A stretch of DNA of 43,269 bases. Origin: Bacteroidaceae bacterium (GTDB taxonomy: Bacteria > Bacteroidota > Bacteroidia > Bacteroidales > Bacteroidaceae). The position numbers and the translations under genes were made by a program. The stretch is from NCBI GenBank assembly GCA_024401055.1, contig JAKSLT010000015.1, forward strand, positions 1-43,269. Direction: 5' to 3'. The notes under the pieces are model-generated. The model was not told where the DNA came from. It was given only the letters and a program-made list of their open reading frames with translations, and searched no databases. Below, in pieces: positions 13,977 through 31,495 of this stretch; positions within the stretch are counted from its first letter, which is position 1, and each line of letters opens with the position of its first letter.

Positions 13977-14064
13977 TTTTAACAGCTGTTGAAATTGATT
14001 TTAACAGTTGTTGAAATGCATTTTAACAGTTGTTGAAATTGATTTTAACAGCTGTTGAAATGAA
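13977..14064. repeat. Array of four 22-bp repeats with AACAGCTGTT core
   Basis: Four head-to-tail units with cores starting at 13981, 14003, 14025 and 14047, exactly 22 bp apart. Each unit reads TTTTAACAGYTGTTGAAATKNA (20 constrained positions). Units 1 and 4 carry the perfect palindrome AACAGCTGTT, units 2 and 3 the near-palindrome AACAGTTGTT. The array lies between the palindromic element and the tRNA-Arg terminator. It shares its architecture, but not its sequence, with the arrays at 22487 and 31386. Confidence 0.9.
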
Positions 14065-14124
14065 ATTAAAAGGGGGATTGGTAAAACGGGTGCGGCCTCT
14101 CTTCAAAACCGGAGGACGGCGGCA

Positions 14125-14154
14125 TGAAAAAAGGCTCCACGATTGTGAAGCCTT
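14125..14154 (-). terminator. Terminator of the tRNA-Arg transcript
   Basis: Read on the minus strand, AAGGCTTCA, a six-base loop, TGGAGCCTT (9-bp stem, one mismatch), then a T-run (13 bases downstream of the stem are not needed; the Ts are at 14127-14132). It lies downstream of tRNA-Arg with the 21-bp repeat array in between, so that array is probably transcribed as the tRNA 3' trailer. Confidence 0.75.
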
Positions 14155-14170
14155 GGGCGTTTCCGCATTA

Positions 14171-14338
14171 GCGAGCCTTGCGCCGCTGCGGGCGGGCCTA
14201 TTCCCGCTTTGGGCAAGTCTTTTCCCGCTGCGTGCGAGCCTTGTGCCGCTGCGGGCGGGTCTTGTGCCGTTGCGGGCGAATCTCTTACCGTTGCGGGCGA
14301 GTATCTTCTCGCTTTGGGCGAGTCTTTTCCCGCTGCAT
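14171..14338. repeat. Array of eight 21-bp repeats in the tRNA-Arg trailer
   Basis: Eight contiguous 21-base units start at 14171, 14192, 14213, 14234, 14255, 14276, 14297 and 14318. The consensus is GCGAGYCTT-N3-CCGCTGCGG; many units keep a CCGCTGCGG or CCGTTGCGG core, which is a small dyad. The last unit ends five bases from the 3' end of tRNA-Arg. The 21-base period would also encode a 7-residue repeat in one plus-strand frame, but that frame runs through the tRNA and is not a credible gene. Confidence 0.9.
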
Positions 14339-14343
14339 GTGAG

Positions 14344-14417
14344 TGACCCCGCAGGGATTCAAACCCTGGACCTTCAGAACCGGAATCTGACGCTCTATTC
14401 AGCTAAGCTACGGGGCC
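14344..14417 (-). tRNA. tRNA-Arg (anticodon CCG)
   Basis: On the minus strand: acceptor GGCCCCG/CGGGGTC (one G-T pair) with discriminator A, D arm GCTT...GAGC, anticodon stem TCAGA/TCTGA with loop TTCCGGT (anticodon CCG, reads CGG), and T arm CAGGG-TTTGAAT-CCCTG. CCA is not encoded, as usual in Bacteroidota. A consensus promoter lies upstream at 14456-14488. Confidence 0.95.
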
Positions 14418-14455
14418 GGGAGGCGCTTTTGCCCGGCATGAGGCGGAAAGCGGAT

Positions 14456-14488
14456 GCAAAATTACGATTTTCTGTTGAAATAGGCAAG
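14456..14488 (-). promoter_or_regulatory. Bacteroidota-type promoter for tRNA-Arg
   Basis: On the minus strand, the -7 box TAATTTTGC (14456-14464) fits TAnnTTTGC. A -33 box CTTG (14485-14488, consensus TTTG) lies 20 bp upstream of it. Confidence 0.75.
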
Positions 14489-14590
14489 GCATGCGGGGAT
14501 AAAATGGCAACTTTGGCCTTAAGTATGTAAATAATGGGGCGAAAGGGGAAGTTTTAGAGAAAATTAAGTGTGCGTGTGGCGTTTTTTTAG

Positions 14591-14598
14591 TAACTTTG
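14591..14598 (+). promoter_or_regulatory. -7 box TAACTTTG upstream of the coiled-coil gene
   Basis: TAACTTTG followed by TG fits TAnnTTTG and lies 20 bp before the ATG at 14619. The -33 region is poor (no TTTG at 19-21 bp). It marks 14619 as the start of its own transcription unit. Confidence 0.55.
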
Positions 14599-14618
14599 TG
14601 CCCAAATAGGCTATTATA

Positions 14619-16622
14619 ATGGTGACACCTGAGATATTGAAGGCCGAACTGGACGGTTTGGGCCTGATTACGATGGAGGAGGCTGATTTGCGCGAGGCCC
14701 GTGAGCGGCGCATTCTGCTTCGCCAGAGTATAGAAGACGAAAAGGAACGTATAAGCGATATTGACAGCCGCCGGGAGTGGACGCTGCGCTTTGATGCGCT
14801 CAACGCCAGGCTGGTGCAGCATCAGCAGGAGGCGCAGAATGCCAGTCGCGCCTGGGCTTCGGCGGGCTCGGAACGGGCCAACGTGGAGCTGTGGGACCGT
14901 CTGCAGCCCATACGCCCGCTTTACTTCAAGGTGCAGGCCTTGCAGGATATGCTGGCGCGCGTGCGAGAGATATACAATGAGGGCGAAGCTGCCATGCAGC
15001 GCCTCAAGATAGAGCGCGATGCGGCCCGCAGTGCCGCCGACGTGGCTCGCCAGCGCTTGGTTGACAGCCAGTTGGCCTTGTCGGCGCGCGTGAAGGACTT
15101 CAACGTGGGCTATCACATTGAGGGCGTAATCAACGCCATCGACAAGCAGCTCAAGCAGAGTGACAGTGCGCTGCAGCAGTTGCAGCTGACGCTGAACGAG
15201 AAGGAGCGCCGGTTGCAGGAAATCCGCATGCAGGAGGCCAATGCCATAAAGCAGACGGAGGAGGCCAACACGCGGGTGCAGGGCTTGTCGGCCCACAGCG
15301 TGATGCTGGGCATGTACGACCTCGTGAAGGACAAGCTCAGCGCCATGGGCAAGGAGCGGCATCTCAATGAGAAACTGCACATGCAGCAGGCAGAGGCCAG
15401 CCGCCAGAAGGAGATGATGCAGATGTCGCTCCGACAGCATGAGGGCGAGCTGACGCTCTTACAGAGGGAGTATGACAAGTGTCGCTCTCAGTTGCTGATA
15501 CTGAACCAGTCGTGTGACACCGTGCTGGACGTGGTGCGCGCGCCTATCATCCGCGACGAAGAAGAGTCGCGCCGCCATCTGGACCGCTTCATTGACTTGC
15601 GCACGCAGATACGCCGCCTGGAGGAGCAACTGCAGATTGCGGACCTGCAACGCCAGACGAAGCGCGAGCAGCTGGAGAAACTCAGCACGGAGGCCGCCGT
15701 GGCCGACAGCCATCGGCTGGCCCTGGAACAGGCCATGAGGGAGAGCGACACGGAGGTGGGCTCGCTGTATGCCGACCTGGACAAGATTATCACGCTCTCG
15801 GGCTGGTTCACGGAGTGGCAGCACAATCCCGACGCCCTCCGCTCCCGCATCTCAAACCTTTACCACGAGTGGCAGAACTCTCGCGTCCGCTATGCGGAGA
15901 GTTCCCGCAACATGGCGCAGCTGCGCTCATCGCTCTCTGCCGCTGAGCAGAGTCTGGCCGAGGCCCGGCAGCAGGAAATACAGCAGCGCAACATGCGCGA
16001 TGCCCTGCGCCGCCAATTGGAGGACCAGCGCGAGAAATTGCGCGCCACCTTCGGCGAAAAGTCCCCGGAAGAGACGGAGAAGGCCCTCACCGAAGACTTC
16101 AGGCAGGCCTCGGCACTTTGTGAGGAGGCTGATAAGAAGCTCGTCGTCATGCAGAAGGATTACTGCGTGATAAAGAGCCGGCAGGAAACGATAAGGGACT
16201 TGCAGGAAAGGCTGCAGGAAGTGCTGCGCAACGAGGGTGCCCGCCTCGACTTGTGGTTGCACAACAGCAATGAAGACGGAAAGGCCGTACTGCAGCGCCC
16301 GGTAATGGAAGAGGTGTTTGCAAGCAAGTGTGACTGGAAACATCTGCGCCAGCAGTTGCAGGACGTGGAGGTGCGGCGTACGGCAAGCAACGTGCGCCTG
16401 GAGGACAGCCAGCGCGAGATGAACGAATTGCAGCGTATGGCCGGCATCAATAAGCCCGGCGACGAGGATACCCCCGCCATGCTCCTGCAGAAACGCCGGG
16501 AGGCAGAGCAACGCCTGGAGAAATTCCAGACCGAACTGCGCGAGGTGGAGGGCAAGGTGTATGCCCACGAAATGGCCCGCCGGAAGATGGACAACCTCCG
16601 CGTGTCGCCTTTCGGAAATTAG
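14619..16622 (+). CDS. SMC/SbcC-like long coiled-coil protein without visible ATPase heads
   Basis: 667 residues with no signal peptide or membrane segment, so cytoplasmic. Nearly the whole chain is charged, Glu/Arg/Gln/Leu-rich coiled coil (about 20-300 and 310-640). A short segment 'LSGWFTEWQHNPDALRSRISNLYHEW' near residue 390 resembles the region seen in SbcC-type coiled-coil arms. There is no Walker A (GxxGxGKS) at the N-terminus and no ABC signature or Walker B at the C-terminus, and no sbcD neighbour. The promoter-like box at 14591 and the tRNA upstream argue that the N-terminus is complete. It could be a headless SMC-like DNA-repair or structural protein; the function is unknown. The stop codon lies in an AATTAG-type repeat, and lptD starts 36 bp downstream, probably in the same operon. 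Confidence 0.75.
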   Translation: MVTPEILKAELDGLGLITMEEADLREARERRILLRQSIEDEKERISDIDSRREWTLRFDALNARLVQHQQEAQNASRAWASAGSERANVELWDRLQPIRPLYFKVQALQDMLARVREIYNEGEAAMQRLKIERDAARSAADVARQRLVDSQLALSARVKDFNVGYHIEGVINAIDKQLKQSDSALQQLQLTLNEKERRLQEIRMQEANAIKQTEEANTRVQGLSAHSVMLGMYDLVKDKLSAMGKERHLNEKLHMQQAEASRQKEMMQMSLRQHEGELTLLQREYDKCRSQLLILNQSCDTVLDVVRAPIIRDEEESRRHLDRFIDLRTQIRRLEEQLQIADLQRQTKREQLEKLSTEAAVADSHRLALEQAMRESDTEVGSLYADLDKIITLSGWFTEWQHNPDALRSRISNLYHEWQNSRVRYAESSRNMAQLRSSLSAAEQSLAEARQQEIQQRNMRDALRRQLEDQREKLRATFGEKSPEETEKALTEDFRQASALCEEADKKLVVMQKDYCVIKSRQETIRDLQERLQEVLRNEGARLDLWLHNSNEDGKAVLQRPVMEEVFASKCDWKHLRQQLQDVEVRRTASNVRLEDSQREMNELQRMAGINKPGDEDTPAMLLQKRREAEQRLEKFQTELREVEGKVYAHEMARRKMDNLRVSPFGN

Positions 16623-16657
16623 GGAATTCGGAAATTAGGGAATTAGCAAATTAGGAA
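16617..16657. repeat. AATTAG-type short-period repeat before lptD
   Basis: Units of GGAAATTAG / GGAATTAG / GCAAATTAG fill the gap from the end of the coiled-coil gene to the lptD ATG. The first unit supplies the TAG stop of the upstream gene. It is the same family as 1078-1127. Confidence 0.75.
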
Positions 16658-16658
16658 A

Positions 16659-19391
16659 ATGCGTCGTCGCCTGTTACTGCTTCTCGTCATCGTGGCCGCC
16701 TGTGTGAAGGGTTTCGCACAGGAGGAGGACACGCTGGCCGTGGCTCCCGCCGCCGTCGGTGTGGAGCAGGCAGTGGACACGCTCTCCGTACAGGGCGACA
16801 GCATCAAGGCCAAGAAAGCCGGCATCGACGCGCCGATACACTTCACGGCGACCGACAGCGTCATCTACGTGGCCAAGACCGGCCTCGCCTATCTCTACGG
16901 CAAGGCCGACGTGAGGTACCAGAACATGGAACTGACCGCCGCGTCGATGACGATGAATATGGACTCGTCGCTCGTCTATGCCCACTCCGCCGCGCCGGAC
17001 TCCCTCGGCAAACGCGAGGGGAGGCCCGTGTATAAACAGGGCAGCGACCAGTATGAGAGCGACGACATGTCGTTCAACTTCAAGACCAAGCGCGGCTTCA
17101 TCAAGAACGTGGCGACGCAGCAGGGCAACGGCTACATGGTGTCCGACCGTGCCCGCCGCGACGACGACGGCACCATATATATGGAGAAAGGCACCTATAC
17201 TACCTGCGACGCCGAGCATCCTCACTTCTACCTGAAGATGACGCGCGGCAAGGTGAGGCCGGGCAAAGAGGCCGTCTTCGGGCCTGCCTACCTCGTCGTG
17301 GAGGACGTGCCGCTGCCGCTGGCCGTGCCATACGGTTTCTTCCCGTTCAGCAAGAAATACTCGTCGGGCATCGTTATGCCGAGCTACGGCGACGAATCGG
17401 CGCGCGGCTTTTATCTGCGCGACGGCGGCTATTACTTCGCTATCAACGACTACATGGACTTTAAGCTCCTCGGTGAAATATATACGAAGGGCTCGTGGGG
17501 CGTTAACGGCGAGATGAACTATAAGAAGCGCTACAAGTTCTCCGGCAACATCTACGTGAACTACCTCCGCACCGTGGAGGGCGAGAAAAACATGCCGGAC
17601 TACTCCGTAGCCAAGAGCATCAAGGTGCAGTGGACACACCGCAAGGAGGGCACTACGCAAAGTTCGTCCACCTTCTCGGCCCGCGTGAACTTCGCCAGCC
17701 AGAACTTTGAGAGGAAAAACCTGGAGTCGCAGTACAACCCGCTGTCGTATTCGCAGTCCACGCGCGCCTCCTCCGTGAGCTGGAGTAAGACGTTCCAGAA
17801 GATAGGGCTCTCCATCTCCGCCTCCGGCAACCTCACGCAGAACATGCGCGACTCCTCGCTCACCGCCACGCTGCCCGACCTCTCCATCAACCTTTCGCGC
17901 GTTTACCCCTTCAAACGCAAGCGTGCCGCCGGCAAGGAACGCTGGTACGAGAAGATTTCGTTCTCCTACACCGGCCAACTCTCCAACTCCTTCACAGGCA
18001 AGGAGGACCAGCTACTCAAGTCCAGCCTCCTCAAGGATTGGAAGAACGGCATGCAGCACCGCATACCCGTTGATGCCATCTTCCAACTCTTTAAGTATAT
18101 CAACGTGACGCCTAACTTCTCCTTCCGCGACATTATGTATAAGGAGAAGGTGAACCGCTCGTGGGACGAGAAGGCGCAGCGTGAGGTGTGCGACACCACC
18201 TACGGCTTCCACAACCTCTACGACTGGAACGCCGGCGTCAGCATCAACACCACGCTCTACGGCTTCTACCGTCCCGTGGTGAAGTTCCTGCAAAAGAAAA
18301 TCGTGATGGTGCGCCACGTGCTCAAGCCTTCCGTCAGCGTGAGCTACGCCCCCGACTTCACGAAGGAAAGCTACGGCTACACGTCCTCGTATGTGAAGAC
18401 AGCCCCCGACGGTTCCGTGTCCACCGTAACCTATTCCCCATACCAGGGCATGCTCTACGGCTATCCCTCCGGCGGCAAGCAGGGACTTATCTCCATGTCC
18501 TTGAGCAATAACCTTGAGATGAAGGTGCGCTCCGACCGCGACTCCACCGGCGTGCGGAAGATTTCCCTTATCGACGAGCTCTCCGCCAACATGTCGTACA
18601 ATATGGCGGCGAAGGAAAAGCCCTGGAGCGACCTCTCGCTGCGCTTCCGCTTGAAGATAACGCCCTCCATCACTATCTCGCAGAACTGGCAGTTCGCCAC
18701 CTACGCTTACGAGTTTGACAAGGACGGCCGCGTGATTGTGGGCAACACTACGGAGTATTCCCACGGCCGCTTCGGCCGCTTCCAAGGCATGTCCTACAAC
18801 CACTCGCTGACGCTCAACAACAAGAAACTCTCCGAACTGTGGGAGAAGATTACCGGCCAGCGGCCGTGGCGCGAGAAATCCTCCACGAAAAAAGCCACCG
18901 AGGACGACGACCTTGACGATGAGGAGGAGTCCAACGTCGATCCCGACATCCGCGAGTCGCAGAAGGGTGGCGGCAAGAAGACCCAGAAAGCCAAAGTTGA
19001 CGACGACGGCTACCTTGCCTTCTCCATTCCTTGGAGCATCTCCTTCAGCTACGGTATCAATCTCTCCGAGAACCGCCAGGCACCCATCAAGGAGAAGCGC
19101 ATGCGCTACCCCTACAAACTCACCCACACGCTCAACTTCTCCGGCTACGTCACCATTGCCGAAGGTTGGAACATCACCTGGAGCAGCGGCTACGACTTCA
19201 ACTATAAAAAGCTCTCCACCACCACCGCCTCCCTCTCCCGCGACCTCCATTGCTTTGAGATGTCCGCCTCCGTGGTGCTGGCTCCTTATTCCTCCTATCA
19301 CTTCACCTTCCGTGCCCGTGCCTCCGAACTGGCCGACGCCCTCAAGTGGGATAAGCGCTCGTCGTACAGCTCGAATGTGCAGTGGTATTAA
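16659..19391 (+). CDS. lptD: LPS assembly outer-membrane protein LptD (OstA family)
   Basis: 910 residues. A signal peptide (MRRRLLLLLVIVAAC..., cleavage after KGFAQ at about 21) is followed by an OstA/LptA-like beta-jellyroll region (about 50-170, 'DSVIYVAKTGLAYLYGKADVRYQN', 'YMEKGTYTTCD') and a long beta-barrel with alternating aromatic strands (about 230-910), ending in Trp-Tyr as outer-membrane barrels often do. LptD inserts lipopolysaccharide into the outer leaflet at the end of the Lpt bridge. An acidic/Lys-rich stretch at about 745-785 (EDDDLDDEEE..., then GGGKKTQK) is probably an extracellular loop. The length is typical for Bacteroidota LptD. No other lpt gene is nearby. The ATG directly follows the AATTAG repeat. 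Confidence 0.88.
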   Translation: MRRRLLLLLVIVAACVKGFAQEEDTLAVAPAAVGVEQAVDTLSVQGDSIKAKKAGIDAPIHFTATDSVIYVAKTGLAYLYGKADVRYQNMELTAASMTMNMDSSLVYAHSAAPDSLGKREGRPVYKQGSDQYESDDMSFNFKTKRGFIKNVATQQGNGYMVSDRARRDDDGTIYMEKGTYTTCDAEHPHFYLKMTRGKVRPGKEAVFGPAYLVVEDVPLPLAVPYGFFPFSKKYSSGIVMPSYGDESARGFYLRDGGYYFAINDYMDFKLLGEIYTKGSWGVNGEMNYKKRYKFSGNIYVNYLRTVEGEKNMPDYSVAKSIKVQWTHRKEGTTQSSSTFSARVNFASQNFERKNLESQYNPLSYSQSTRASSVSWSKTFQKIGLSISASGNLTQNMRDSSLTATLPDLSINLSRVYPFKRKRAAGKERWYEKISFSYTGQLSNSFTGKEDQLLKSSLLKDWKNGMQHRIPVDAIFQLFKYINVTPNFSFRDIMYKEKVNRSWDEKAQREVCDTTYGFHNLYDWNAGVSINTTLYGFYRPVVKFLQKKIVMVRHVLKPSVSVSYAPDFTKESYGYTSSYVKTAPDGSVSTVTYSPYQGMLYGYPSGGKQGLISMSLSNNLEMKVRSDRDSTGVRKISLIDELSANMSYNMAAKEKPWSDLSLRFRLKITPSITISQNWQFATYAYEFDKDGRVIVGNTTEYSHGRFGRFQGMSYNHSLTLNNKKLSELWEKITGQRPWREKSSTKKATEDDDLDDEEESNVDPDIRESQKGGGKKTQKAKVDDDGYLAFSIPWSISFSYGINLSENRQAPIKEKRMRYPYKLTHTLNFSGYVTIAEGWNITWSSGYDFNYKKLSTTTASLSRDLHCFEMSASVVLAPYSSYHFTFRARASELADALKWDKRSSYSSNVQWY

Positions 19392-19393
19392 AG

Positions 19394-19435
19394 ACCCTCC
19401 CCTAACCCCTCCCTAAAGGGCGGGGAATAAATACT
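19394..19435. repeat. C-rich/G-rich dispersed element in the leader of the GH16 gene
   Basis: CCCTCCCCTAACCCCTCCCT, then AAAGGGCGGGGAATAAATACT. It matches the end of the element before the giant gene (5454-5537), including the AATAAATACT/AGTAAATACT edge. It lies in the 53-base gap between lptD and the ATG at 19445. Confidence 0.65.
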
Positions 19436-19444
19436 CACAGAGAT

Positions 19445-20767
19445 ATGCGACACATTATTTATATTATAGGAATCCTCTTGACCTTCCTTGTTCTCGTACC
19501 TGCAAAAGGCGCTTACACCCCTCCCTTGATGGAGGGGCAGGGGGTGGGTCTTGAGGGCCAGGGGGCAGGTCGCCTCCGTTTCGCCACCAACTACGGCTTC
19601 TTCGTCCATTACGGCACGGAGACGGGCCTTCCTGACGCCGTGCCCACGACGACACTGCGCCTGCGTCTCATCGCTCCCGACGATTGCTACACGCTTCCGG
19701 CCGAGGCCTCTCTCACCGTGACCGACGCCGAAGGCCAGACCGTTGCCGAGCATACCTACAGCGTAGGCAAGACAGGCCTCGTCACCATCCCCGCCGACGA
19801 CATGAAGGGCGGCGACGTCCTCATCAGTGCTACTCTCACGCCGCCCGCCTCCTACGGCTCCGACGACTACGTCCTCGCTTTCTCCGACGAATTTTCCGAG
19901 GATGGGAAGCCCGCCGTGCGCCGCTGGAACCGCGCCAACCAGGAGAACTCCTCCGCGTGGAACCGCTACGTCTCCACCTCCGAGAAGGTTCTCTACGTTC
20001 GCGACGGCGACCTCGTGGCGCGTTGCATCCCCTGTGCTCCCGAGGACCGCGAGGCCAACCGCAGCCCGCTCAACAACGAATACCGCGACTGGATGAGCGG
20101 CGCCGCCAACACCCGCGGCAAATACAACTTCCGCTACGGCCGCATTGACGTGCGTGCCCTCACCAACCCCTTCAAGGGCAGTTTCCCTGCCATCTGGTTT
20201 ATGCCCATCGACGGCTCCGCCGGCTGGCCCTACTGCGGCGAGATAGACCTCTGGGAGATGATAAACACCTCCAACCTCGCCTACGGCACCGTACACGCCG
20301 CCAAAGAGTCGCAGCACTCGCGCTTCACCTCATGCAACTACGACGGCCTCTACCACGTATATACCCTGGAGTGGACGGACGAGTGGATGAAGTGGAGCAT
20401 TGACGGTAAGGACCCTTACAGCACTTACCTCAAGAGTTCCCTCTCCGCCGACCAACTGGCCCAGGGCTACTGGCCCTTCGACAAGAAGTTCTACCTCATC
20501 CTCAACCAGAGCGTAGGAATGGGCACGTGGGCCGATTGGCCCGTGGAGGGCCACGAATACGAGACGCGCTTCGACTTCGTCCGTATCTACCAGACGCCCG
20601 CCCAGAATAAGTCCGTCCTCACGGGAATTCAAGGACAACAGACAACAGACAGCAGACAACAATCATCCGCCTACGACCTCACCGGCCGCCCTTTTTCCGA
20701 TAAGGGGGCGCGGGAGGGCCTTCACGGCCTCGTCCTCTCACCCCAAAGGAAGGTTATCCTCCCGTAA
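19445..20767 (+). CDS. Secreted GH16-family glycoside hydrolase with T9SS-like tail
   Basis: 440 residues: signal peptide (about 1-23), a linker encoded by a C-run/G-run repeat (about 24-42), an Ig-like domain (about 43-137) and a GH16 beta-jellyroll (about 140-385). The catalytic signature EIDLWE is at 266-271, with E266 as expected nucleophile and E271 as acid/base. Supporting GH16 motifs are FSDEF at 146-150, AIWFMP near 250 and 'YTLEWTDEWMKWSIDG' near 306-321. The C-terminus has YDLTGRPFSDKGAREGLHG..., a T9SS-type tail interrupted by another hairpin-like repeat. GH16 enzymes are endo-acting on beta-1,3/1,4-glucans, galactans or mucin O-glycans; the substrate cannot be read from the sequence. 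The sulfatase start is 29 bp downstream, so a joint role on a sulfated glycan is likely. Confidence 0.88.
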   Translation: MRHIIYIIGILLTFLVLVPAKGAYTPPLMEGQGVGLEGQGAGRLRFATNYGFFVHYGTETGLPDAVPTTTLRLRLIAPDDCYTLPAEASLTVTDAEGQTVAEHTYSVGKTGLVTIPADDMKGGDVLISATLTPPASYGSDDYVLAFSDEFSEDGKPAVRRWNRANQENSSAWNRYVSTSEKVLYVRDGDLVARCIPCAPEDREANRSPLNNEYRDWMSGAANTRGKYNFRYGRIDVRALTNPFKGSFPAIWFMPIDGSAGWPYCGEIDLWEMINTSNLAYGTVHAAKESQHSRFTSCNYDGLYHVYTLEWTDEWMKWSIDGKDPYSTYLKSSLSADQLAQGYWPFDKKFYLILNQSVGMGTWADWPVEGHEYETRFDFVRIYQTPAQNKSVLTGIQGQQTTDSRQQSSAYDLTGRPFSDKGAREGLHGLVLSPQRKVILP

Positions 20768-20796
20768 ATGATTTGTTTTTCCGAAATCTCGAATTT

Positions 20797-22356
20797 ATGA
20801 ATAAGCAATACATAAGCCTCGGTGCCGTCCTTCTCGGCGCTGCCCCCGTACTGGCGCAGACGCGCACGGCACTCCCCCTTGGGGCAGACGGAGGGCCTTC
20901 CCGTCCCAACGTCATCGTCATCCTGGCCGACGACCTCGGCTACGGCGACCTCGGATGCTATGGCGCCCGTCAGGTGACCACCCCAAACGTGAGCCGCCTC
21001 GCTGCCTCCGGCGTGCGCTTCACCAACTGCCACGCCGTGGCCGCCACCTCCACGCCCTCGCGCTACTCCCTTCTCACGGGTGAGTATGCCTGGCGCCGCC
21101 CCGACACCGACATCGCCGCCGGCAATGCTGCCGCCATCATACGCCCCGAGCAGTTCACCATGGCCGATATGTTCCACAGCGCCGGCTATGCCACCGCCGC
21201 CATCGGCAAGTGGCACCTCGGCCTCGGCGACAAGGCCGGCGAGCAGGACTGGAACGCCCCGCTACCCGTAAGTCTCGGCGACCTCGGCTTCGACTACCAT
21301 TACATCATGGCTGCCACCGCCGACCGCGTGCCCTGCGTCTTCATTGAGCAGGCGCAGGTGGCCGACTACGACCCCTCCGCCCCCATAGAGGTGAGTTACC
21401 GCGGCAACTTCCCCGGCGAGCCCACCGGAGCCGACCATCCCGAGATGCTCTACAACCTCCGTCCCTCCCACGGCCACGACATGTCCATCGTCAACGGCAT
21501 CTCCCGCATCGGCTATATGAAGGGCGGCGGCAAGGCTCTCTGGAAGGACGAGAACATTGCCGACTCCATCGCCTCCCACGCCATACAGTTCATCCGCCGC
21601 CACAAGGATGAGCCCTTCTTCATGTACTTCTGCACCAACGACGTGCACGTGCCCCGCTTCCCCCACGAGCGTTTTCGCGGCAAGAATCCTATGGGCTACC
21701 GCGGCGACGCCATCGACCAGTTCGACTGGACCGTGGGCCAACTCCTCGGCGAACTCCAGCGCCTCGGCATCGCCGACAACACCCTCATCATCCTCACCTC
21801 CGACAACGGCCCCGTGGTGGACGACGGCTATGCCGACCGCGCCGAAGAACTTCTCGGCGACCACAAGCCCGCCGGTCCGTGGCGCGGCGGTAAGTACAGC
21901 GCCTTCGAGGGCGGCACCGCCGTTCCCCTCATCGTTTCGTGGCCCGCGCAGGTGAAGGCCGCTCAGGAGAGCGCCGCACTCGTTTCCCACATCGACCTCT
22001 TCGCCTCCCTCGGCACCCTCGTCGGTGCACGCCTCCCCCGCGGAGCCGCCGCCGACAGCCGAGACGCCCTCTCCACCCTTCTCGGACGCGACCGTGCCGA
22101 CCGCCCCTACGTAGTGGAGCAGGCCAATGACCACACCCTCTCCATCCGCACCCGGGACTGGAAGTATATCACCCCCTCTAACTCCGGCCCGATGATAACC
22201 TGGGGCCCGAAGATAGAGACCGGCTACCTCCCCGAACCCCAACTCTTCGACATGCGCAAGGTCACCGAGCGCGAGAACGAGGCTGCCCGCCACCCCGACG
22301 TCGTGGCCACCCTCCAGTCCGCCCTTGAGGACATCCGCGCGGGAAAAGCGAAGTAA
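20797..22356 (+). CDS. S1-family sulfatase, serine type
   Basis: 519 residues from ATG 20797. A TTG at 20773 is in frame but would place extra residues before a clear signal peptide (MNKQYISLGAVLLGAAPVLAQ). Metal-site motif LADDLGYGD (D45, D46), the sulfatase signature STPSRYSLLTG (S85 is the residue converted to formylglycine), GKWHLG near residue 140 and TSDNGPV near 330 are all present. The Ser at the modified position, not Cys, implies maturation by a radical-SAM anSME enzyme, not encoded here. It would hydrolyse sulfate esters on a glycan, in the periplasm or at the surface. There is no T9SS tail. Residues about 22-36 (TRTALPLGADGGPSRP) come from a C-run/G-run repeat. It probably forms an operon with GH16; the terminator is at 22430. 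Confidence 0.9.
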   Translation: MNKQYISLGAVLLGAAPVLAQTRTALPLGADGGPSRPNVIVILADDLGYGDLGCYGARQVTTPNVSRLAASGVRFTNCHAVAATSTPSRYSLLTGEYAWRRPDTDIAAGNAAAIIRPEQFTMADMFHSAGYATAAIGKWHLGLGDKAGEQDWNAPLPVSLGDLGFDYHYIMAATADRVPCVFIEQAQVADYDPSAPIEVSYRGNFPGEPTGADHPEMLYNLRPSHGHDMSIVNGISRIGYMKGGGKALWKDENIADSIASHAIQFIRRHKDEPFFMYFCTNDVHVPRFPHERFRGKNPMGYRGDAIDQFDWTVGQLLGELQRLGIADNTLIILTSDNGPVVDDGYADRAEELLGDHKPAGPWRGGKYSAFEGGTAVPLIVSWPAQVKAAQESAALVSHIDLFASLGTLVGARLPRGAAADSRDALSTLLGRDRADRPYVVEQANDHTLSIRTRDWKYITPSNSGPMITWGPKIETGYLPEPQLFDMRKVTERENEAARHPDVVATLQSALEDIRAGKAK

Positions 22357-22486: not shown

Positions 22487-22616
22487 ATTTCCACATATGT
22501 GGAAACATTTTTCCACAATTGTGAAAAATACTTTCGACATATGTAAAAAATACTTTCGACATATGTGGAAAATAGTTTCTACATATGTGGAAAATAGTTT
22601 CTACATATGTGGAAAT
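22487..22616. repeat. Array of six 22-bp repeats with ACATATGT core
   Basis: Core octamers start at 22493, 22515, 22537, 22559, 22581 and 22603, exactly 22 bp apart. Five are ACATATGT. The second is ACAATTGT, a different but still perfect palindrome (two compensating changes). Spacers are A/T-rich (GGAAAATAGTTTCT type). The array follows the sulfatase terminator and precedes the 3' end of the small minus-strand gene, in a convergent region. From 22617 to 22805 I see no gene or site, only G-rich sequence. Confidence 0.92.
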
Positions 22617-23057: not shown

Positions 23058-23094
23058 CAACAAATCTTGGATATATATTAACTAATCCTATATC

Positions 23095-24792
23095 ATGGAC
23101 ACTTTTCTGAATATCCTTTCCCTTCTGGGCTCCCTCGGACTGTTTCTCTTCGGAATGAAGACGATGAGCGAGGGCCTGGAGAAGTTTGCCGGCGACCGCC
23201 TGCGCAGCATTCTGGCCGCCATGACGAAAAACCGCTTTATGGGCGTGCTGACCGGCATTACGGTGACGGCGCTCATACAGTCGTCGTCGGCCACCACGGT
23301 GATGGTGGTGTCGTTTGTCAATGCGGGACTGATGAATCTGGCACAGGCCATCGGCGTGATTATGGGTGCCAACGTGGGCACCACGGTGACGGCGTGGATT
23401 ATCTCTGCCATTGGCTTTAAGGTTAATATTGCCGCGCTGGCCCTTCCTCTGCTGGCCTTCGGCATTCCTTTGATATTCAGCAAGCGGGGTAGGCGGAAGT
23501 CCGTGGGCGAGTTTGTCTTCGGCTTCGCTTTCCTGTTTATGGGCCTGAGTTTCCTGCAGCAAGCCGCCACCGACCTTGATATCGGCGCGATGGTGGCCGC
23601 CATGCTGGCGCAGTTGGCCGACGGGGGCTTCTTTACGATTATCCTCTTCGTGCTCGTGGGTGCTCTGGTGACCATGCTCGTACAGGCTTCGGCGGCCACG
23701 ATGGCCATCACGCTGATGCTTTTCGACATGCACATTGCGGGCTTCGGCCTTGAACAGGCCGCCGCCCTCGCCATGGGCCAGAATATCGGCACCACCATTA
23801 CGGCCCTCATGGCTTCGATGACGGCCGGCACGCAAGCCCGCCGCGCGGCATTGGCCCACCTGTTCTTCAATGTATTCGGCGTCGTTGTGGTACTGCTGAT
23901 GTTCTATCCGTTCTGCAATGGCGTGAGCTGGTTTGTAGAGAACGTGATGCAGGCAGGCGACAACGACCTCTTCAAGTTGTCGATGTTCCACACGGCGTTC
24001 AACGTTTTCAACACCTTGATGCTGATAGGCTTCGTGCATCAGATAGAACGCTTCATCTGCCGCCTGCTCCCGCTCAAGGAAAAGGAGGAAGAAAAGAGCC
24101 TGAAGTACATCTCGGGCGGTCTGTTCTCCACGGCCGAAATCTCACTGCTGCAGGCCCGCAAGGAAATCGTATTCTTCGGAGAGCGCTGTCAGCAGGCATT
24201 CGGCCTCGTGCAGGAGATGCACGGCATTGCAAAGGACGATGCCTTCCGCCAGATATACGACAAGGTGGAGAAATACGAAGAAATAACCGACAACATGGAG
24301 TATGAGATAGCCCACTACCTGCAGAAGGTGGGTGAGGGCCGCCTGTCCGACGAAGCGAAACGGCAGGTGCAGCGCATGCTGCGTGAGGTAGATGACCTTG
24401 AGAGCATAGGCGACAGTTGCTTCTCCCTGGCTCGCACGCTCAACCGTAAGCGAGAGATGGGCGCGGAACACTTCACGCCCGAACAGCTGGAGCAGATACA
24501 CCGCATGGAGGGCCTCGTGGCCGAAGCCCTTGCCCGTATGACGGAGACCTTGCGGCAGCCCGAGGGCGAGGGACACGACATCTCGCAAAGTTACAGGCTG
24601 GAGATGAAAATCAATGCCCTGCGCACGGAACTGCGTAATGGCAACCTGCAGAACATATCCGAGGGCCAGTACGACTACAAGTTGGGAGCCTTCTACATAG
24701 ACTTTATCAACGGTCTGGAGAAACTGGGCGACTACGTCCTCAACGTGGTGCAGAGCAAGGCCAGGCAGACGCGTGTGATGAAGGAAGAGTAG
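23095..24792 (+). CDS. Na+/phosphate symporter of the NptA/PNaS family with PhoU-like C-terminal domain
   Basis: 565 residues. The N-terminal half is an inverted duplicate of hydrophobic helices, with the family motif QSSSATT at 62-68 and its partner QASAAT at 197-202, both expected in the substrate path, plus GANVGTT near 91 and GQNIGTT in the second half. After about residue 330 the chain becomes a soluble helical domain (about 345-560) of PhoU type, with 'EKYEEITDNMEYEI' and 'EVDDLESIGDSCF'. The family imports phosphate with sodium; the PhoU-like part is thought to regulate it. The response regulator/kinase pair starts 75 bp downstream on the same strand, which supports a phosphate-related module. 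No Pho-box-like site was recognised. Confidence 0.9.
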   Translation: MDTFLNILSLLGSLGLFLFGMKTMSEGLEKFAGDRLRSILAAMTKNRFMGVLTGITVTALIQSSSATTVMVVSFVNAGLMNLAQAIGVIMGANVGTTVTAWIISAIGFKVNIAALALPLLAFGIPLIFSKRGRRKSVGEFVFGFAFLFMGLSFLQQAATDLDIGAMVAAMLAQLADGGFFTIILFVLVGALVTMLVQASAATMAITLMLFDMHIAGFGLEQAAALAMGQNIGTTITALMASMTAGTQARRAALAHLFFNVFGVVVVLLMFYPFCNGVSWFVENVMQAGDNDLFKLSMFHTAFNVFNTLMLIGFVHQIERFICRLLPLKEKEEEKSLKYISGGLFSTAEISLLQARKEIVFFGERCQQAFGLVQEMHGIAKDDAFRQIYDKVEKYEEITDNMEYEIAHYLQKVGEGRLSDEAKRQVQRMLREVDDLESIGDSCFSLARTLNRKREMGAEHFTPEQLEQIHRMEGLVAEALARMTETLRQPEGEGHDISQSYRLEMKINALRTELRNGNLQNISEGQYDYKLGAFYIDFINGLEKLGDYVLNVVQSKARQTRVMKEE

Positions 24793-24817
24793 AAAAGGCA
24801 GTTTGTAGGGATTTTGT

Positions 24818-24849: not shown

Positions 24850-24867
24850 CCGCAAATTGTAAATGCC

Positions 24868-26768: not shown

Positions 26769-26803
26769 CACCGCCGCATAGCCTTGCTGACATATATAAT
26801 AAT

Positions 26804-26843
26804 AAAAACTCCCCCGAAGCAATGCTCCGAGGGAGTTTATTAT
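26804..26843. terminator. Terminator between the histidine kinase gene and pckA (convergent)
   Basis: The 8-bp stem AAACTCCC (26806-26813) / GGGAGTTT (26831-26838) has an inner CCGAAGC...GCTCCG part, A-run before and T/A-rich tail after. It can serve the plus-strand kinase and, from the other side, the minus-strand pckA. Confidence 0.75.
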
Positions 26844-26895
26844 GTTAGGCGGTCAACCTTGCATCTCGGTGGATACTCGGTTGTCGCACTTGCGA

Positions 26896-26923
26896 CTTAG
26901 AGCTTAGGACCAGCAGCGACGAG
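26896..26923. repeat. 28-bp direct repeat of the pckA 3' end
   Basis: These 28 bases are identical to 26959-26986, which encode the last residues of PckA (LVAAGPKL and stop). The copies are 63 bp apart. The one here is downstream of the stop, so it is a duplicated gene end. The 35 bases in between match nothing in the gene. Confidence 0.8.
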
Positions 26924-26959
26924 CTGAAATCTCGTTGCTGCGTCCACTCTGCGCTTCGC

Positions 26960-28561
26960 TTAGAGCTTAGGACCAGCAGCGACGAGAGCCTTACCGGCTT
27001 CGTTGGTGGTGTACTTGCCGAAGTTCTTGATGAAGCGGGCGGCGAGGTCCTTGGCCTTCTCTTCCCACTTGCAAGCGCAGTCGTAGGTGTCGCGGGGGTC
27101 GAGGATGGCGGGATCAACGCCGGGGAGAGCGGTGGGAACCTCAAAGTCGAAGAGAGGAATCTTCTTGGTGGGAGCCTCGTTGATGGCGCCGGAGAGGATG
27201 GCGTCGATGATGCCGCGGGTATCCTTGATGGAGATACGCTTGCCCGTGCCGTTCCAACCGGTGTTCACGAGGTAAGCCTTGGCACCGCTGCGCTGCATCT
27301 TCTTGACGAGTTCCTCGGCGTACTTGGTGGGGTGCAGTTCAAGGAAGGCCTGGCCGAAGCAAGCGGAGAAGGTGGGAGTGGGCTCGGTGATGCCGCGCTC
27401 GGTACCGGCGAGCTTGGCGGTGAAGCCAGAGAGGAAGTAGTACTGAGTCTGCTCGGGAGTCAGGATGCTTACGGGAGGCAGTACGCCAAAGGCGTCGGCA
27501 CTGAGGAAGATAACCTGCTTGGCAGCGGGAGCGCTGGAACCGGGCTGGATGTTCTGGATGTGGTTGATGGGGTAGGACACGCGGGTGTTCTCGGTCACGC
27601 TCTTGTCGGCGAAGTCAATCTTACCGTTCTCGTCAACCGTTACGTTCTCGAGGAGGGCGTCGCGACGGATGGCGTTGTAGATGTCGGGCTCGCTTTCCTT
27701 GTCGAGGTTGATAACCTTGGCGTAGCAGCCGCCTTCGAAGTTGAAGATACCTTCGTCGTCCCAGCCGTGCTCGTCGTCACCGATGAGGCGACGCTTGGGG
27801 TCGGTGGAGAGGGTGGTCTTGCCGGTGCCGGAGAGACCGAAGAAGATGGCGGTGTTCTCGCCGTTCATGTCGCAGTTGGCGGAGCAGTGCATGGAGGCGA
27901 TGCCCTGGAGGGGGAGGTAGTAGTTCATCATGGAGAACATACCCTTCTTCATCTCGCCGCCGTACCAAGTGTTGATGATAACCTGCTCACGGCTGGTGGT
28001 GTTGAAGGCCACGCAGGTGTCGGAGCGCAGGCCGAGCTCTTCGAAGTTCTCTACCTTGGCCTTGGAGGCGTTGTAGATAACGAAGTTGGGCTCGAAGGCT
28101 GCGAGTTCTTCCTCGGTGGGCTGGATGAACATGTTCTTGATGAAGTGAGCCTGCCAAGCCACCTCGACGATGAAGCGGACGGCCATGCGGGTGTCCTTGT
28201 TGGCGCCGCAGAAGGCATCAACTACATAGAGGTTCTTGTTGCAGAGTTCCTTAACGGCGATTTCCTTAACCTTAGCCCATACTTCCTCGGACATGGGGTG
28301 GTTGTCGTTCTTGTACTCCTCGGTAGTCCACCATACGGTGTTCTTGGAGTTCTCGTCCATCACGATGTACTTGTCCTTAGGAGAACGGCCGGTGAAGATA
28401 CCGGTCATCACGTTGACGGCGCCGAGTTCGGTCTGCTGACCTACCTCATAGCCTTCGAGGCCAGCCTTGGTCTCTTCGGCGAAGAGGGTTTCATAACTGG
28501 GGTTGTGGGCAATCACGGTAGCACCGGTGATGCCGTACTTGGTAAGATCTAATGTTGCCAT
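26960..28561 (-). CDS. pckA: Phosphoenolpyruvate carboxykinase (ATP)
   Basis: 533 residues, normal for the ATP-dependent enzyme. P-loop GLSGTGKT at 242-249, a second metal/nucleotide segment '[20 protein letters not shown]' directly after it, and the family segment 'HCSANCD' near 225. It interconverts oxaloacetate and PEP; in succinate-forming Bacteroidales it mostly works in the carboxylating direction, fixing CO2 and making ATP. The malate dehydrogenase gene on the same strand (32630-33622) is the next step towards succinate. The start is 41 bp after the stop of an FKBP gene, with no clear promoter in the gap (only a 16-bp duplicated TTATTTAGTTGAA motif), so it may be transcribed with the FKBP genes. 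Confidence 0.95.
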
Positions 28562-28602
28562 TGATTTTAGTTATTTAGTTGAAGGGTTATTTAGTTGAAA
28601 AG

Positions 28603-29475
28603 TTATTTCTTGTCCTTGATGCTGAGGAGTTCTACCTTGAAGATGAGGGTGGCGTAGGGAGGAATGCCGCCGCGGCTGCCCTGTTCGCCGTATGCGAGGT
28701 CGTAGGGGATGTAGAGGTTCCAGGTGGAGCCTACGGGCATCATGCAGAGAGCCTCGGTCCAGCCCTTGATGACTTGGTTCACGCCGAAGGTGGCGGGCTT
28801 GCCGCGCTTGTAGGAGGAGTCGAAGACGGTGCCGTCGATGAGCTTACCCTCGTAGTTCACTTCCACCTGGCAGGTGTCGGTGGGCACGGGGCCATTGCCC
28901 ATGGTGACAACTTCGTACTGCAGGCCGCTGGGGAGTGTCTTGATGCCGGGCTTTTGGCCGTTCTCGGCGAGCCAGTTGAGGCCTTCGCAGCGCATCACTT
29001 CCTTGCGGTAGTTGCTCTGCTGCTCCACGATGCTCTCGGCCACGCTGTCGGCGAGGTGAGCCTTACCGAGCACGGCTTCGGCGAGCCCCTGCACGTAGAG
29101 TTCCTTGTTGAAATAGGTGGAGTCATTGCCGGCGAACTGCTCGGTGAGGCTCTGGATGACGCGCTCGCGGTTCATCTTGGCAATCTTGAGGCCGGCCACA
29201 TAGGCTACGAGGCGGTCTTCCTCTTCCTGGGAAATCTGGGCGGTGAGGCCTTTGGCGAACTGGTCGTAGTTGGCTTCCTGCACGCCTTCCTGCTGGGCGA
29301 GGTACTGCTTCAGGCTGGGAGCCTGCACAACGCCGATGGCGTAGCTGAACTGATCGGAGGGAGCGGCCTGCACGGCGGGCACTTCCTTCTTGAGCTCAAG
29401 GGTCTTTTTCTTGGTGCGTGCGCTGGCTCCGCTGCAGATGAGGAGGGAGAGCGCAATAAGAAGAATCTTTTTCAT
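28603..29475 (-). CDS. Exported FKBP-type peptidyl-prolyl isomerase (copy 1)
   Basis: 290 residues. Signal peptide (MKKILLIALSLLICSGASA; the Cys in LLIC might make it a lipoprotein, but the context fits signal peptidase I better). A helical FKBP_N-type dimerisation region (about 50-180) precedes the FKBP domain (about 195-288), which has VNYEGKLIDGTVFDSS, VIKGWTEAL and IPYDLAYGE, so the usual active-site aromatic residues (Tyr, Phe-Asp, Trp, Tyr) are kept. It should act as a periplasmic folding catalyst, FkpA-like. It is the third of three tandem paralogues on the minus strand (order 30452, 29504, 28603), with a 28-base gap to the next. Confidence 0.9.
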   Translation of the reverse strand: MKKILLIALSLLICSGASARTKKKTLELKKEVPAVQAAPSDQFSYAIGVVQAPSLKQYLAQQEGVQEANYDQFAKGLTAQISQEEEDRLVAYVAGLKIAKMNRERVIQSLTEQFAGNDSTYFNKELYVQGLAEAVLGKAHLADSVAESIVEQQSNYRKEVMRCEGLNWLAENGQKPGIKTLPSGLQYEVVTMGNGPVPTDTCQVEVNYEGKLIDGTVFDSSYKRGKPATFGVNQVIKGWTEALCMMPVGSTWNLYIPYDLAYGEQGSRGGIPPYATLIFKVELLSIKDKK

Positions 29476-29503
29476 TTCTTACTTTTTATATTTTGTTTTT
29501 TAC

Positions 29504-30418
29504 TTAGTTAGGCATCTCTACTACCTGGGGCTGACCCATCATTTGCGGCTGGGCGTCCTTGTCGATGCTGACGAGCTTAACCTTGAAGACGAGGGCACTG
29601 CAAGGCTGGATGGGGCCTGTGCTGTTTTCGCCGTAAGCCTGCTGGTAGGGGATATAGATTTCCCACTCGCTGCCCACGGTCATCTGCTGCAAGGCGTAGC
29701 CGAAGCCGGGAATCATCTGGCCGGGTACGCAAGGCATGGGCTCGCCCTGAGTGTAGTTGCTGTCGAAGACGGTGCCGTCAACGAGCCTGCCTTCATAGAA
29801 TATCTTCACCTGACTGTCGGCCTTGGGCTTTTCGCCGTTGCCCGGGGTCAGAACCTTATACTGCACGCCGTTGGGGAACGTCTTTACGTCGGGTTTCTTG
29901 GCATTGGCGGCCAGGAAGCTCTCGCCAGCCTTCTTGTTGCTCTCAAACATCTTGGCGCGCTCGGCGTTGATACGGCCGTTCACGTCGTTGCCGGCTATTT
30001 CGGGAGTGACGGGCATGCCGTTGATAGACATGTTGCTGCGACGGTAAGCACCGTTCACTACGCCGGCCAGATAGTTGCGGCGGCTGAGGGTCTGGGTGGA
30101 ATCGTTGCCGAAGATTTGCCTTTCCATGCCTTCAAGCTGCGAGTTGCTCTGCATGCCGAACATAATGCCCAGATAGCGGGCCATCTTTTTCTTGTCGGCG
30201 GAGCCCAGGGTGCCTTCCTTCATGCCGGCGATGAACTCCTTGAGGTAGGTGCTGTCGAGGCCGCCTTGCTGCAGGACGTTCTCGACGTAGGCGCTGTTGG
30301 CCATACCTACCTCGTAGCTGATGGTGTCAATGTTGTTGGAGAGGGAGGGCTTCATGCGTCCTTCCTGACAGCTGGCCAGCGTGAGGGCGGCCATGGCGAA
30401 TAAGAGAACTTTTTTCAT
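29504..30418 (-). CDS. FKBP-type peptidyl-prolyl isomerase lipoprotein (copy 2)
   Basis: 304 residues. A lipobox LASC with Cys17 makes it a lipoprotein. The N-terminal helical region holds 'DTISYEVGMANSAYVENVL'. The FKBP domain (about 200-292) has IFYEGRLVDGTVFDSN and IPYQQAYGE, but the conserved Trp of the pocket floor is Phe here ('MIPGFGYAL' against 'VIKGWTEAL' in copy 1). Lower or altered catalysis, or a mainly chaperone role, is possible. Middle gene of the three-gene tandem set. Confidence 0.9.
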   Translation of the reverse strand: MKKVLLFAMAALTLASCQEGRMKPSLSNNIDTISYEVGMANSAYVENVLQQGGLDSTYLKEFIAGMKEGTLGSADKKKMARYLGIMFGMQSNSQLEGMERQIFGNDSTQTLSRRNYLAGVVNGAYRRSNMSINGMPVTPEIAGNDVNGRINAERAKMFESNKKAGESFLAANAKKPDVKTFPNGVQYKVLTPGNGEKPKADSQVKIFYEGRLVDGTVFDSNYTQGEPMPCVPGQMIPGFGYALQQMTVGSEWEIYIPYQQAYGENSTGPIQPCSALVFKVKLVSIDKDAQPQMMGQPQVVEMPN

Positions 30419-30451
30419 ATTTGTATTGGTTTGATTGAATCGGAGGGGGAA

Positions 30452-31036
30452 TTATTGGATGCTGATGAGCTCCACGTCGAAGATGAGCGTGGCGTAGGGC
30501 GGGATGCTGCCTCCGGCGCCGCGTGCGCCGTAGCCCAGCTGGAAGGGAATGGTGAAGCGGAACTTGCTCCCCACGGCCATGAGCTGCAAGCCCTCCGTCC
30601 AGCCGGCGATGACGCCCTGGAGGGGGAACGAGGCGGGTTCGCCGCGGCGATAGGAGGAGTCGAACACGGTGCCGTCCACGAGGCGACCCTCATAGTGGCA
30701 CGTCACGGTGTCGGTAGCCTTGGGCTTCTGGCCCAGGGCGGCGGTGAGTATCTCATACTGCAGGCCGCTCTCCGTCACCTTCACGCCCTCTTTCTTGGCG
30801 TTCTCGGCAAGGTATTTCTCGCCTTCGGCGCGCAGGGCGCGGCTCTGTTCCTCTTCTTTCTTCTGTAGGTATTGCTGCACGGTAATCTGGGCCTCCTGGT
30901 CGGTGAGCTCAGTCTTTTCGCCGTCGATTACGGCCTTGACGGCGGCGGTGAAGTCCTCCGTCTGCAGGGCATCGACACCCATCTGGCGGAGATTGCGGGC
31001 AATGGCCATGCCCAAAGCGTAACTTATTTTATCCAT
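30452..31036 (-). CDS. Cytoplasmic FKBP-type peptidyl-prolyl isomerase (copy 3)
   Basis: 194 residues starting MDKISYALGMAIARNL with no signal peptide, so cytoplasmic, FKBP22-like. The short helical N-domain (1-95) contains 'QYLQKKEEEQSRALRAEGEKYL'. The FKBP domain (about 100-194) has CHYEGRLVDGTVFDSS, VIAGWTEGL and IPFQLGYG, with the pocket Trp present. It is the first gene of the FKBP-pckA run and has a -7 box at 31080. Confidence 0.9.
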   Translation of the reverse strand: MDKISYALGMAIARNLRQMGVDALQTEDFTAAVKAVIDGEKTELTDQEAQITVQQYLQKKEEEQSRALRAEGEKYLAENAKKEGVKVTESGLQYEILTAALGQKPKATDTVTCHYEGRLVDGTVFDSSYRRGEPASFPLQGVIAGWTEGLQLMAVGSKFRFTIPFQLGYGARGAGGSIPPYATLIFDVELISIQ

Positions 31037-31079
31037 TGATTTTTTAGTGTTGTTGTAAGGGGTGCGGTTTATTCCGTGC

Positions 31080-31088
31080 GCAAAATTA
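31080..31088 (-). promoter_or_regulatory. -7 box of the FKBP-pckA run
   Basis: On the minus strand TAATTTTGC fits TAnnTTTGC exactly, 44 bp before the FKBP start at 31036. No TTTG is present at 19-21 bp upstream. From 31089 to 31385 I see no gene; the sequence is pyrimidine-rich with an AT-rich stretch at 31125-31145. Confidence 0.6.
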
Positions 31089-31385
31089 CAAAAAACTTTT
31101 CTTTCGCCCGCCGTTCTTTCCGTACATTATATATTTTTATATATGTGCGCGCGCGAAAAGGCAACTGTGGTTGCCAAAAATCTCCCTGCTGCTGGCCTTG
31201 CGCGCACTTTACGCCTTGGTTCAGGATAAGAGCCTCGCATATCAGATGCCCCCAAACTGCAATTCTTTCCTTCATAAACCACTCTCCGCCTCTCTCCGTT
31301 TTCCCCGTCCCGTTTCGCGGCAACAAAGCGCCTGCCGTCTGTCCCGAAGAGGCTGCCTCTGCTTTATTTCGCCGACAGCAATATC

Positions 31386-31495
31386 GCACAACCTAGGTCG
31401 CGTGATTGCACAACCTAGGTTGTGTGATTAAACAACCTAGGTCGCGCGATTAAACAACCTAGGTTGTGCAATCAGACAACCTAGGTTGTGTAATA
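31386..31495. repeat. Array of five 22-bp repeats with ACAACCTAGGTTGT core
   Basis: CCTAGG starts at 31392, 31414, 31436, 31458 and 31480, exactly 22 bp apart. Units 2, 4 and 5 carry the 14-bp palindrome ACAACCTAGGTTGT; units 1 and 3 have ACAACCTAGGTCGC. The spacer is GYGATTAAA-like. It lies about 300 bp upstream of the FKBP promoter, in a 676-bp gap with no gene. Confidence 0.92.

Follow-up and report, generated by a model that had tools for sequence, protein, structure and literature searches.

Many bacterial groups harbour tandem repeats of constant size and variable sequence, the unit of which is 20-23 nt long (Subirana and Messeguer 2021, PMC8161180). In the available text of that paper, these repeats are described as species-specific and characterized by short motifs, their length is noted as two helical turns and their function is left open, with a polymerising protein or small RNAs as candidates. 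Transcription has been reported for 52-nt repeats of Bacillus coagulans (available text of PMC8161180 and PMC8625621). In Porphyromonas gingivalis, BrickBuilt is a 23-nt minisatellite miniature inverted-repeat transposable element (MITE) made of intergenic direct repeats, with 19 dispersed copies, many of which have a leader or a tail; other 22- and 23-nt repeats in Porphyromonas are mentioned in the available text of the same source (PMC4596501). This work addresses three tandem arrays with a 22-bp period (arrays 1, 2 and 3) located in a stretch of 43,269 bp from a gut bacterium of the Bacteroidaceae (assembly GCA_024401055.1, contig JAKSLT010000015.1), hereafter called the window. An earlier sequence-only reading of the window had proposed a possible new class of element. 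However, as 20-23-nt repeats of constant size and variable sequence (available text of PMC8161180) and BrickBuilt in Bacteroidales (available text of PMC4596501) were already published, these arrays are a palindromic variant of the published class and not a new one.

The explanation that we favour, with a probability of about 0.52, is that the arrays offer phased dyads as binding sites to a symmetric DNA-binding protein and travel on intergenic minisatellite cassettes that disperse in the genome. Each unit is a dyad, the two inverted half-sites of which are separated by about one helical turn, and the distance from one dyad to the next is held at two turns (exactly 22 bp here). A symmetric (dimeric) DNA-binding protein would bind these dyads, with dimers lying side by side along the array, and motif and protein would drift together between species. 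Transposition, recombination or gene conversion would account for the spread of the cassettes, whereas unequal exchange would alter the number of units. Once bound, the arrays might organise the nucleoid, act as boundaries at gene ends or merely be maintained as selfish repeats. The parts of this explanation that the data directly support are the fixed spacing with a variable linker, the covariation of the dyad at the DNA level, the ordered unit variants in dispersed copies and the motifs that differ between species.

The three arrays are as follows:
Array 1, 13977..14064, no strand assigned: four superfamily-A units, with sites at 13977-13994, 13999-14016, 14021-14038 and 14043-14060.
Array 2, 22487..22616, no strand assigned: six superfamily-A units, with sites at 22488-22505, 22510-22527, 22532-22549, 22554-22571, 22576-22593 and 22598-22615.
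Array 3, 31386..31495, no strand assigned: five RACCNNGGTY units (centre CTAG), with cores at 31390, 31412, 31434, 31456 and 31478.

Both reading of the sequence and Tandem Repeats Finder (TRF), which gives a period of 22 for each array, confirm that four, six and five units follow each other at exactly 22-bp spacing without any spacing error, as had been read initially. All three arrays are intergenic according to a crude codon-based gene caller. When 8 array-1-type, 6 array-2-type and 7 array-3-type copies are considered, 74 of the 75 intervals between units are 22 bp long, the exception being a stray match 167 bp past L015. The unit number is usually 3-6 in the families of the window, some other copies having 3 units; the arrays of the window, with 4, 6 and 5, all fall within the published search threshold of at least 4 repeats (available text of PMC8161180). 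The palindrome attributed to each array does exist as a core, but it is not perfect in every unit. In array 1, AACAGCTGTT is strict in 2/4 units, the other two being AACAGTTGTT; in array 2, ACATATGT is strict in 5/6 units, one being ACAATTGT; in array 3, ACAACCTAGGTTGT is strict in 3/5 units and ACCTAGGT is found in 5/5.

The three arrays had also been thought to share no sequence. This holds for array 3, which is a separate family, but not for arrays 1 and 2, which belong to a single superfamily (superfamily A). Indeed, the consensus TTTYNACANNTGTNRAAA fits all ten of their units, intermediate arrays at C8:18902 and C8:30188 are matched by both, and the tail GAAAYGAAAYTAAA is common to 3/8 array-1-type and 2/6 array-2-type copies compared. 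Scans with the core of array 1 (20 arrays, 77 units) and with that of array 2 (18 arrays, 71 units) give sets of similar make-up. The host genome carries 89 exact TTTYNACANNTGTNRAAA sites and none for the reversed control pattern; 61 neighbouring pairs are at exactly 22 bp, whereas no such pair is found in 200 further genomes from the family, of which 12 belong to the same genus, and the 89 sites minus these 61 pairs correspond to about 28 groups spread over many contigs. By DNA similarity, array 1 is found in 3/151 genomes, its own included. All successive sites within 60 bp of each other (52/52) are at 22 bp, and in a second count, in which duplicates were removed more strictly, 48 intervals measure 22 bp and a single one measures 123 bp. 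In the 48 neighbouring pairs examined, the linker always has 4 bp and shows 18 different sequences (strand-folded). In one region (G000, C9:29374-29435 and 29541-29624), two superfamily-A arrays lie about 100 bp apart and differ by their centres, AGCT versus AATT/AACT.

The symmetry of superfamily A was analysed on 78 of the 89 sites, using 2000 shuffles, ACA/TGT and TTT/AAA being fixed by the pattern itself. As these shuffles leave the shared ancestry of the units in, the linker pairs of the same units were used as internal control. The central base pair is GC in 23 sites, TA in 22, AT in 15, AC in 10, GT in 7 and TC in one; it is therefore self-complementary in 60/78, versus a shuffle mean of 26.7 and a maximum of 43. 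Pair 5 is complementary in 56/78 sites (shuffle mean 24.9, maximum 38), and the linker pairs 10 and 11 are at chance (20 vs 23.2 and 28 vs 26.2, respectively). When each unit is compared with its neighbour, the same centre is found in 28/52 cases, a difference at one base in 15/52 and at both bases in 9/52; at pair 5, both bases changed in 3 of the 52 and one base in 10. Two bases that lie side by side at the centre are unable to pair in a hairpin; the simplest interpretation of their covariation is therefore in terms of the duplex. The covariation of symmetric positions and the fixed length of a linker of variable sequence favour recognition at the DNA level over the RNA level, probably by a protein.

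The family of array 3 provides a view of the turnover of the centre between species. RACCNNGGTY triplets at 22 bp number 23 in the host genome, 6 in Candidatus Equimonas (G201) and 1 in a second relative (G202), and none was found in the other 17 of the 20 genomes searched. By DNA similarity, array 3 is found in 1/151 genomes (its own), with a diverged form in G201. The centre is TA in 36/37 units of the host genome, whereas the 14 units of G201 have CG (11), TT (2) or TA (1) and G202 carries three intergenic units with centre CG and other flanks. Between the host and the related species, the CTAG centre is thus replaced by CCGG with conservation of the palindrome, and both central bases changed together in most units.

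The arrays seem to spread as complete cassettes. Unit variants follow each other in a conserved order in the array 3 copies (the third and fourth units agree in L017, L018 and L022); the left edge CATTCNNTYATTACAC is common to 4/7 of these copies, and their right flanks form groups. Two array-1-type copies have 189 bp around the array in common, with 95% identity. More generally, copies of the array 1 type, like those of the array 3 type, have flanks that are only partly common. A local amplification, as envisaged earlier, would account for arrays that differ by whole units (L019/L021), but position-specific units are kept, as if whole cassettes had spread. In a 23-bp family, the flanks are conserved and form inverted ends; no inverted ends were seen by eye in the flanks of array 3 copies, no search for insertion sequences having been made. 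Arrays of 21 bp often occur as inverted pairs; for the ACTAGT type, such pairs are found in L034 (4702-4890), L148 (3143-3270), L144 (6407-6754) and L150 (18183-18524), and in L144 the 21-bp register survives in strongly decayed units. In addition, contigs C31 and C16 have in common a stretch of 1.1 kb with 99.7% identity (L010 1964-3095 and L014 1706-2838), which adjoins array-1-type copies; one of its two copies has an extra segment of about 320 bp that recurs elsewhere.

The host genome, which is 83% complete, was sampled through the window and 40 other stretches (778,131 of 2,308,453 bases, about a third of the genome). TRF rows with a period of at least 10, at least 2.4 copies and a score of at least 50 were kept, and overlapping rows were collapsed. 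Periods of 21-23 bp account for 64/105 non-coding tandem arrays in this sample, their density being roughly 80 per Mb in the host genome; 9 coding arrays have a period of 21. The exact 22-bp period first taken as the signature of a class thus characterizes the three arrays, but the sample includes 35 arrays at 21 bp, 19 at 22 bp and 10 at 23 bp. With about 10.5 bp per DNA turn, 22 bp corresponds to two turns plus about 34 degrees. Dyads would therefore face the same side of the DNA only approximately, and 21 bp is a closer fit to two turns. Clustering at 70% identity yields 14 families in the host sample, some of which merge on closer look. A palindromic core is not universal at 21-23 bp, as a significant palindromic consensus (p<0.05) is found in 15/73 families of this period (one contig being counted in two sets), versus 1/38 control families at 12-18 bp.

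The three arrays are real and far above chance. Five dinucleotide shuffles of intergenic gaps of at least 60 bp gave together one array of any period. Likewise, when three or more palindromes, each of 8 bp or longer, were required to follow one another at a constant 22-bp spacing, 12 such runs were found in the sample versus 0 in 20 shuffles of intergenic DNA, in agreement with the sequence-only reading; a chance origin is therefore rejected. Other runs were found at 44 bp (8, a harmonic) and, once each, at 13, 21, 23, 32, 33 and 35 bp.

Relatives were ranked by LptD, and 80 of 290 LptD loci were kept; the nearest titled genomes are Candidatus Equimonas faecalis (81%) and a horse-faeces Bacteroidaceae metagenome-assembled genome (77%). 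The share of non-coding arrays with a period of 21-23 bp is 39/79 in the 80 LptD loci, 6/9 in same-genus stretches, 6/10 in family stretches, 12/23 in G201, 9/18 in G202 and 7/9 in G203/G204. The palindrome-run test is weaker there: two runs at 22 bp were found in G201 and none in G202, while the 80 LptD loci contain a single run at 21 bp, another at 23 bp and no run at 22 bp. Array sequences differ among relatives. Several arrays of G201 and most arrays of G202 have units around a TATA centre with TA-rich arms, and the arrays of G204 consist of 21-bp units around GCCTWAG. That the genome and its relatives have distinct array families with this period supports a mechanism that fixes architecture and not sequence, as had been suggested. 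In Candidatus Equimonas, a 21-bp ACTAGT array (L044 9898-9978), which by eye appears to keep the reading frame of LptD close to the part that encodes its N-terminus, resembles the intergenic 21-bp family of the window's genome.

Several results weigh against the proposal of phased sites bound by a symmetric protein. Pair 6 of superfamily A is complementary below chance (26/78, shuffle mean 38.4), and the one-base changes between neighbours imply that symmetry is often broken for a time. A significant dyad is found in only 15/73 families at 21-23 bp, so the period class as a whole is beyond what a symmetric dimer can explain. Arrays without any indel are more frequent at 21-23 bp than at other periods up to 40 in the host sample (53/64 vs 18/33), in the LptD loci (28/39 vs 24/37) and in G202 (8/9 vs 7/9), but the trend is reversed in G201 (5/12 vs 7/9), so exact spacing does not hold for all families. 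Nothing can be concluded from the gene context: divergent gaps host arrays less often than expected in the host sample (3/59, p=0.03), but this bias is weak and absent from the other genome sets. Finally, the DNA-binding protein envisaged from the start is favoured by the dyad covariation and by the linker of fixed length and variable sequence, but no binding protein was identified. One candidate, a protein of the BlaI/MecI/CopY type (site TACANNTGTA), was rejected, as the 83%-complete host genome has 0 matches to PF03965 (Penicillinase_R), 7/14 control genomes being positive.

It is possible, although rather unlikely, that the arrays are non-functional dispersed minisatellites or MITE-like elements, the period and dyad of which would have been fixed in a few founders and then copied with a two-turn copying step and without any host protein. 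The ordered unit variants and partly common flanks of the copies, the inverted ends of the 23-bp family, the frequent inverted pairs of 21-bp arrays, the species-restricted sequences and the precedent of BrickBuilt (available text of PMC4596501) are all consistent with such an origin. However, copying alone does not predict central and pair-5 complementarity far above shuffles with linker pairs at chance, even if shared ancestry inflates complementarity, nor does it readily explain that unrelated families in many species have the same 21-23-bp step; furthermore, neither terminal inverted repeats nor target duplications are established for arrays 1-3.

A transcribed RNA, in which tandem small hairpins would act on 3' ends or as a sponge, appears improbable. 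The symmetry of the units permits hairpins, and the 52-nt repeats of Bacillus coagulans offer an example of transcription (available text of PMC8161180 and PMC8625621). In tandem gaps, 3/3 array-1-type and 1/1 array-2-type copies are in sense orientation, the orientation of a palindromic array being weakly defined; however, orientation to transcription is mixed in the largest family, that of 21 bp (11 same, 6 opposite), and in the array 3 type (1 and 1). Mismatches of the G-T type exceed those of the A-C type in the scans with array 1 (61 vs 25) and array 2 (48 vs 38), but this excess mostly comes from pair 6 (T-G 38 and 29), where the strand was set by likeness to a T-G-bearing reference. Without pair 6, mismatches are balanced (23 vs 25 and 19 vs 28, respectively); the array 3 family has 30 vs 22, and the central pair of superfamily A is GT in 7 sites and AC in 10. 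Thus, bases that would be central in a loop, and therefore unable to pair in a hairpin, covary, and the G-U preference of a structured RNA is lacking outside pair 6 of superfamily A, although self-complementary kissing loops might be a way round the former point. Moreover, Rfam at the gathering threshold gives no match at the arrays. For these reasons, the structural RNA role put forward initially is disfavoured and hairpin arrays were set aside as the principal explanation. Still less probable is an origin from iteron- or centromere-like relics of replication or partition sites of plasmids or other elements. Plasmid iterons and partition-site arrays are tandem protein-binding sites near two helical turns apart, a form that the arrays share; iterons are direct repeats and lie at a replication origin, next to an initiator gene. 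Nevertheless, the groups of superfamily A, about 28 on many contigs, argue against it, as does the fact that none of the 16 proteins of the window that were scanned, including the protein-coding neighbours of the arrays, matches a replication initiator.

The genes and segments that flank the arrays are listed below:
5542..13497, strand +: left neighbour of array 1, encoding a 2651-residue protein with a CARDB match and a weaker CarboxypepD_reg-like match.
14060..14079, strand +: tail of array 1 (ATGAAATTAAAAGGGGGATT), the first part of which recurs beside several other superfamily-A copies.
14343..14417, strand -: right neighbour of array 1, tRNA-Arg(CCG).
20773..22356, strand +: left neighbour of array 2, encoding a sulfatase (PF00884).
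23095..24792, strand +: right neighbour of array 2, encoding a Na+/Pi cotransporter with a PhoU match.
30452..31036, strand -: left neighbour of array 3, encoding an FKBP-type peptidyl-prolyl isomerase.
31367..31387, no strand assigned: flank of array 3 (TTTCGCCGACAGCAATATCGC), closely matched in 2 and partly in 1 of the 6 other copies compared.
31713..32489, strand -: right neighbour of array 3, encoding a 258-residue protein without Pfam match, with a 50% identical homologue in Candidatus Equimonas (G201).

At the tRNA-Arg flank of array 1, Candidatus Equimonas carries a different 22-bp array and another left neighbour. Homologues of one neighbour each of arrays 2 and 3 were sought in eight genomes, and TRF detected no 21-23-bp array in the 7 of the 12 returned loci to which it was applied, synteny being unchecked. 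Other repeats are present in the window. An element of 185 bp (13621-13806), which forms an imperfect inverted repeat with GC-rich stems, immediately precedes array 1 and has many copies in the sample (matches in L134, L031, L034, L149 and L138), and a degenerate GC-rich 21-bp array (14171-14301, about 74% matches), unlike arrays 1-3 in sequence, lies between array 1 and the tRNA-Arg gene. Heptad (7/14-bp) repeats of the GACAACA type are found in or near coding sequences (968-994, 2371-2398, 6516-6544 and 20634-20661), and 14-bp arrays that resemble them occur elsewhere in the sample.

Overall, the observations of the sequence-only reading are partly confirmed and its interpretation is partly supported. 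A broader proposal, which we consider doubtful, would be that species of the family maintain their own phased symmetric arrays, which a dimeric DNA-binding protein that evolves fast would recognise and along which it would polymerise, every two turns accommodating one dimer; motif and protein would co-evolve, so that the sequence turns over (from a CTAG to a CCGG centre, the palindrome being kept) while the geometry stays, and the whole would constitute a genome-wide nucleoprotein mark. The clearly symmetric arrays are a part of the roughly 80 arrays of this period per Mb of this genome. The substitution pattern, in which symmetric positions and spacing are held, linker sequence is free and RNA signatures are mostly absent, helps to discriminate between candidates. 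Furthermore, array 2, and array 3 with a CTAG or CCGG centre, provide defined bait sequences for a protein search, the variant of the second species being a built-in control of specificity.

Repeats of CRISPR (clustered regularly interspaced short palindromic repeats) are separated by unique spacers of about 30 bp; a CRISPR array was rejected, as the 22-bp units are head-to-tail with a 4-bp linker and no spacers. Unlike iterons and partition sites, the arrays occupy many chromosomal sites, belong to several families per genome and have no initiator gene beside them in the window. They resemble BrickBuilt by their Bacteroidales host and their dispersed intergenic location, as well as by the conserved flanks and inverted ends of the 23-bp family (available text of PMC4596501). 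However, the IS5-like (insertion sequence 5-like) terminal inverted repeats and the target duplications of BrickBuilt are not established for arrays 1-3, and a dyad unit is not described for it in the available text of PMC4596501. The arrays share with the class of PMC8161180 a fixed unit of nearly two turns, several sequences per genome, a mostly non-coding location and a short unit motif; as described for this class in the available text, sizes of 20-23 nt are dominant (64/105), families are several, and arrays are non-coding and species-specific (superfamily-A pairs in 1/201 genomes). The words beginning with palindrom-, symmetr- and Bacteroid- are absent from the available text of PMC8161180, and no description of palindromic 22-bp arrays in Bacteroidales was found in the literature searched, which did not cover the 2020 J Bacteriol paper on the class, where dyads may be described. 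In contrast with the repeats of PMC8161180, as far as its available text goes, the families of the window have a DNA-level dyad, a covarying centre, a linker of fixed length and variable sequence, ordered cassettes and a host from the Bacteroidaceae. As far as literature searches show, these arrays add four features to the known class: the dyad covaries, the linker varies in sequence at a fixed length, cassettes are ordered, and the centre changes symmetrically between species.

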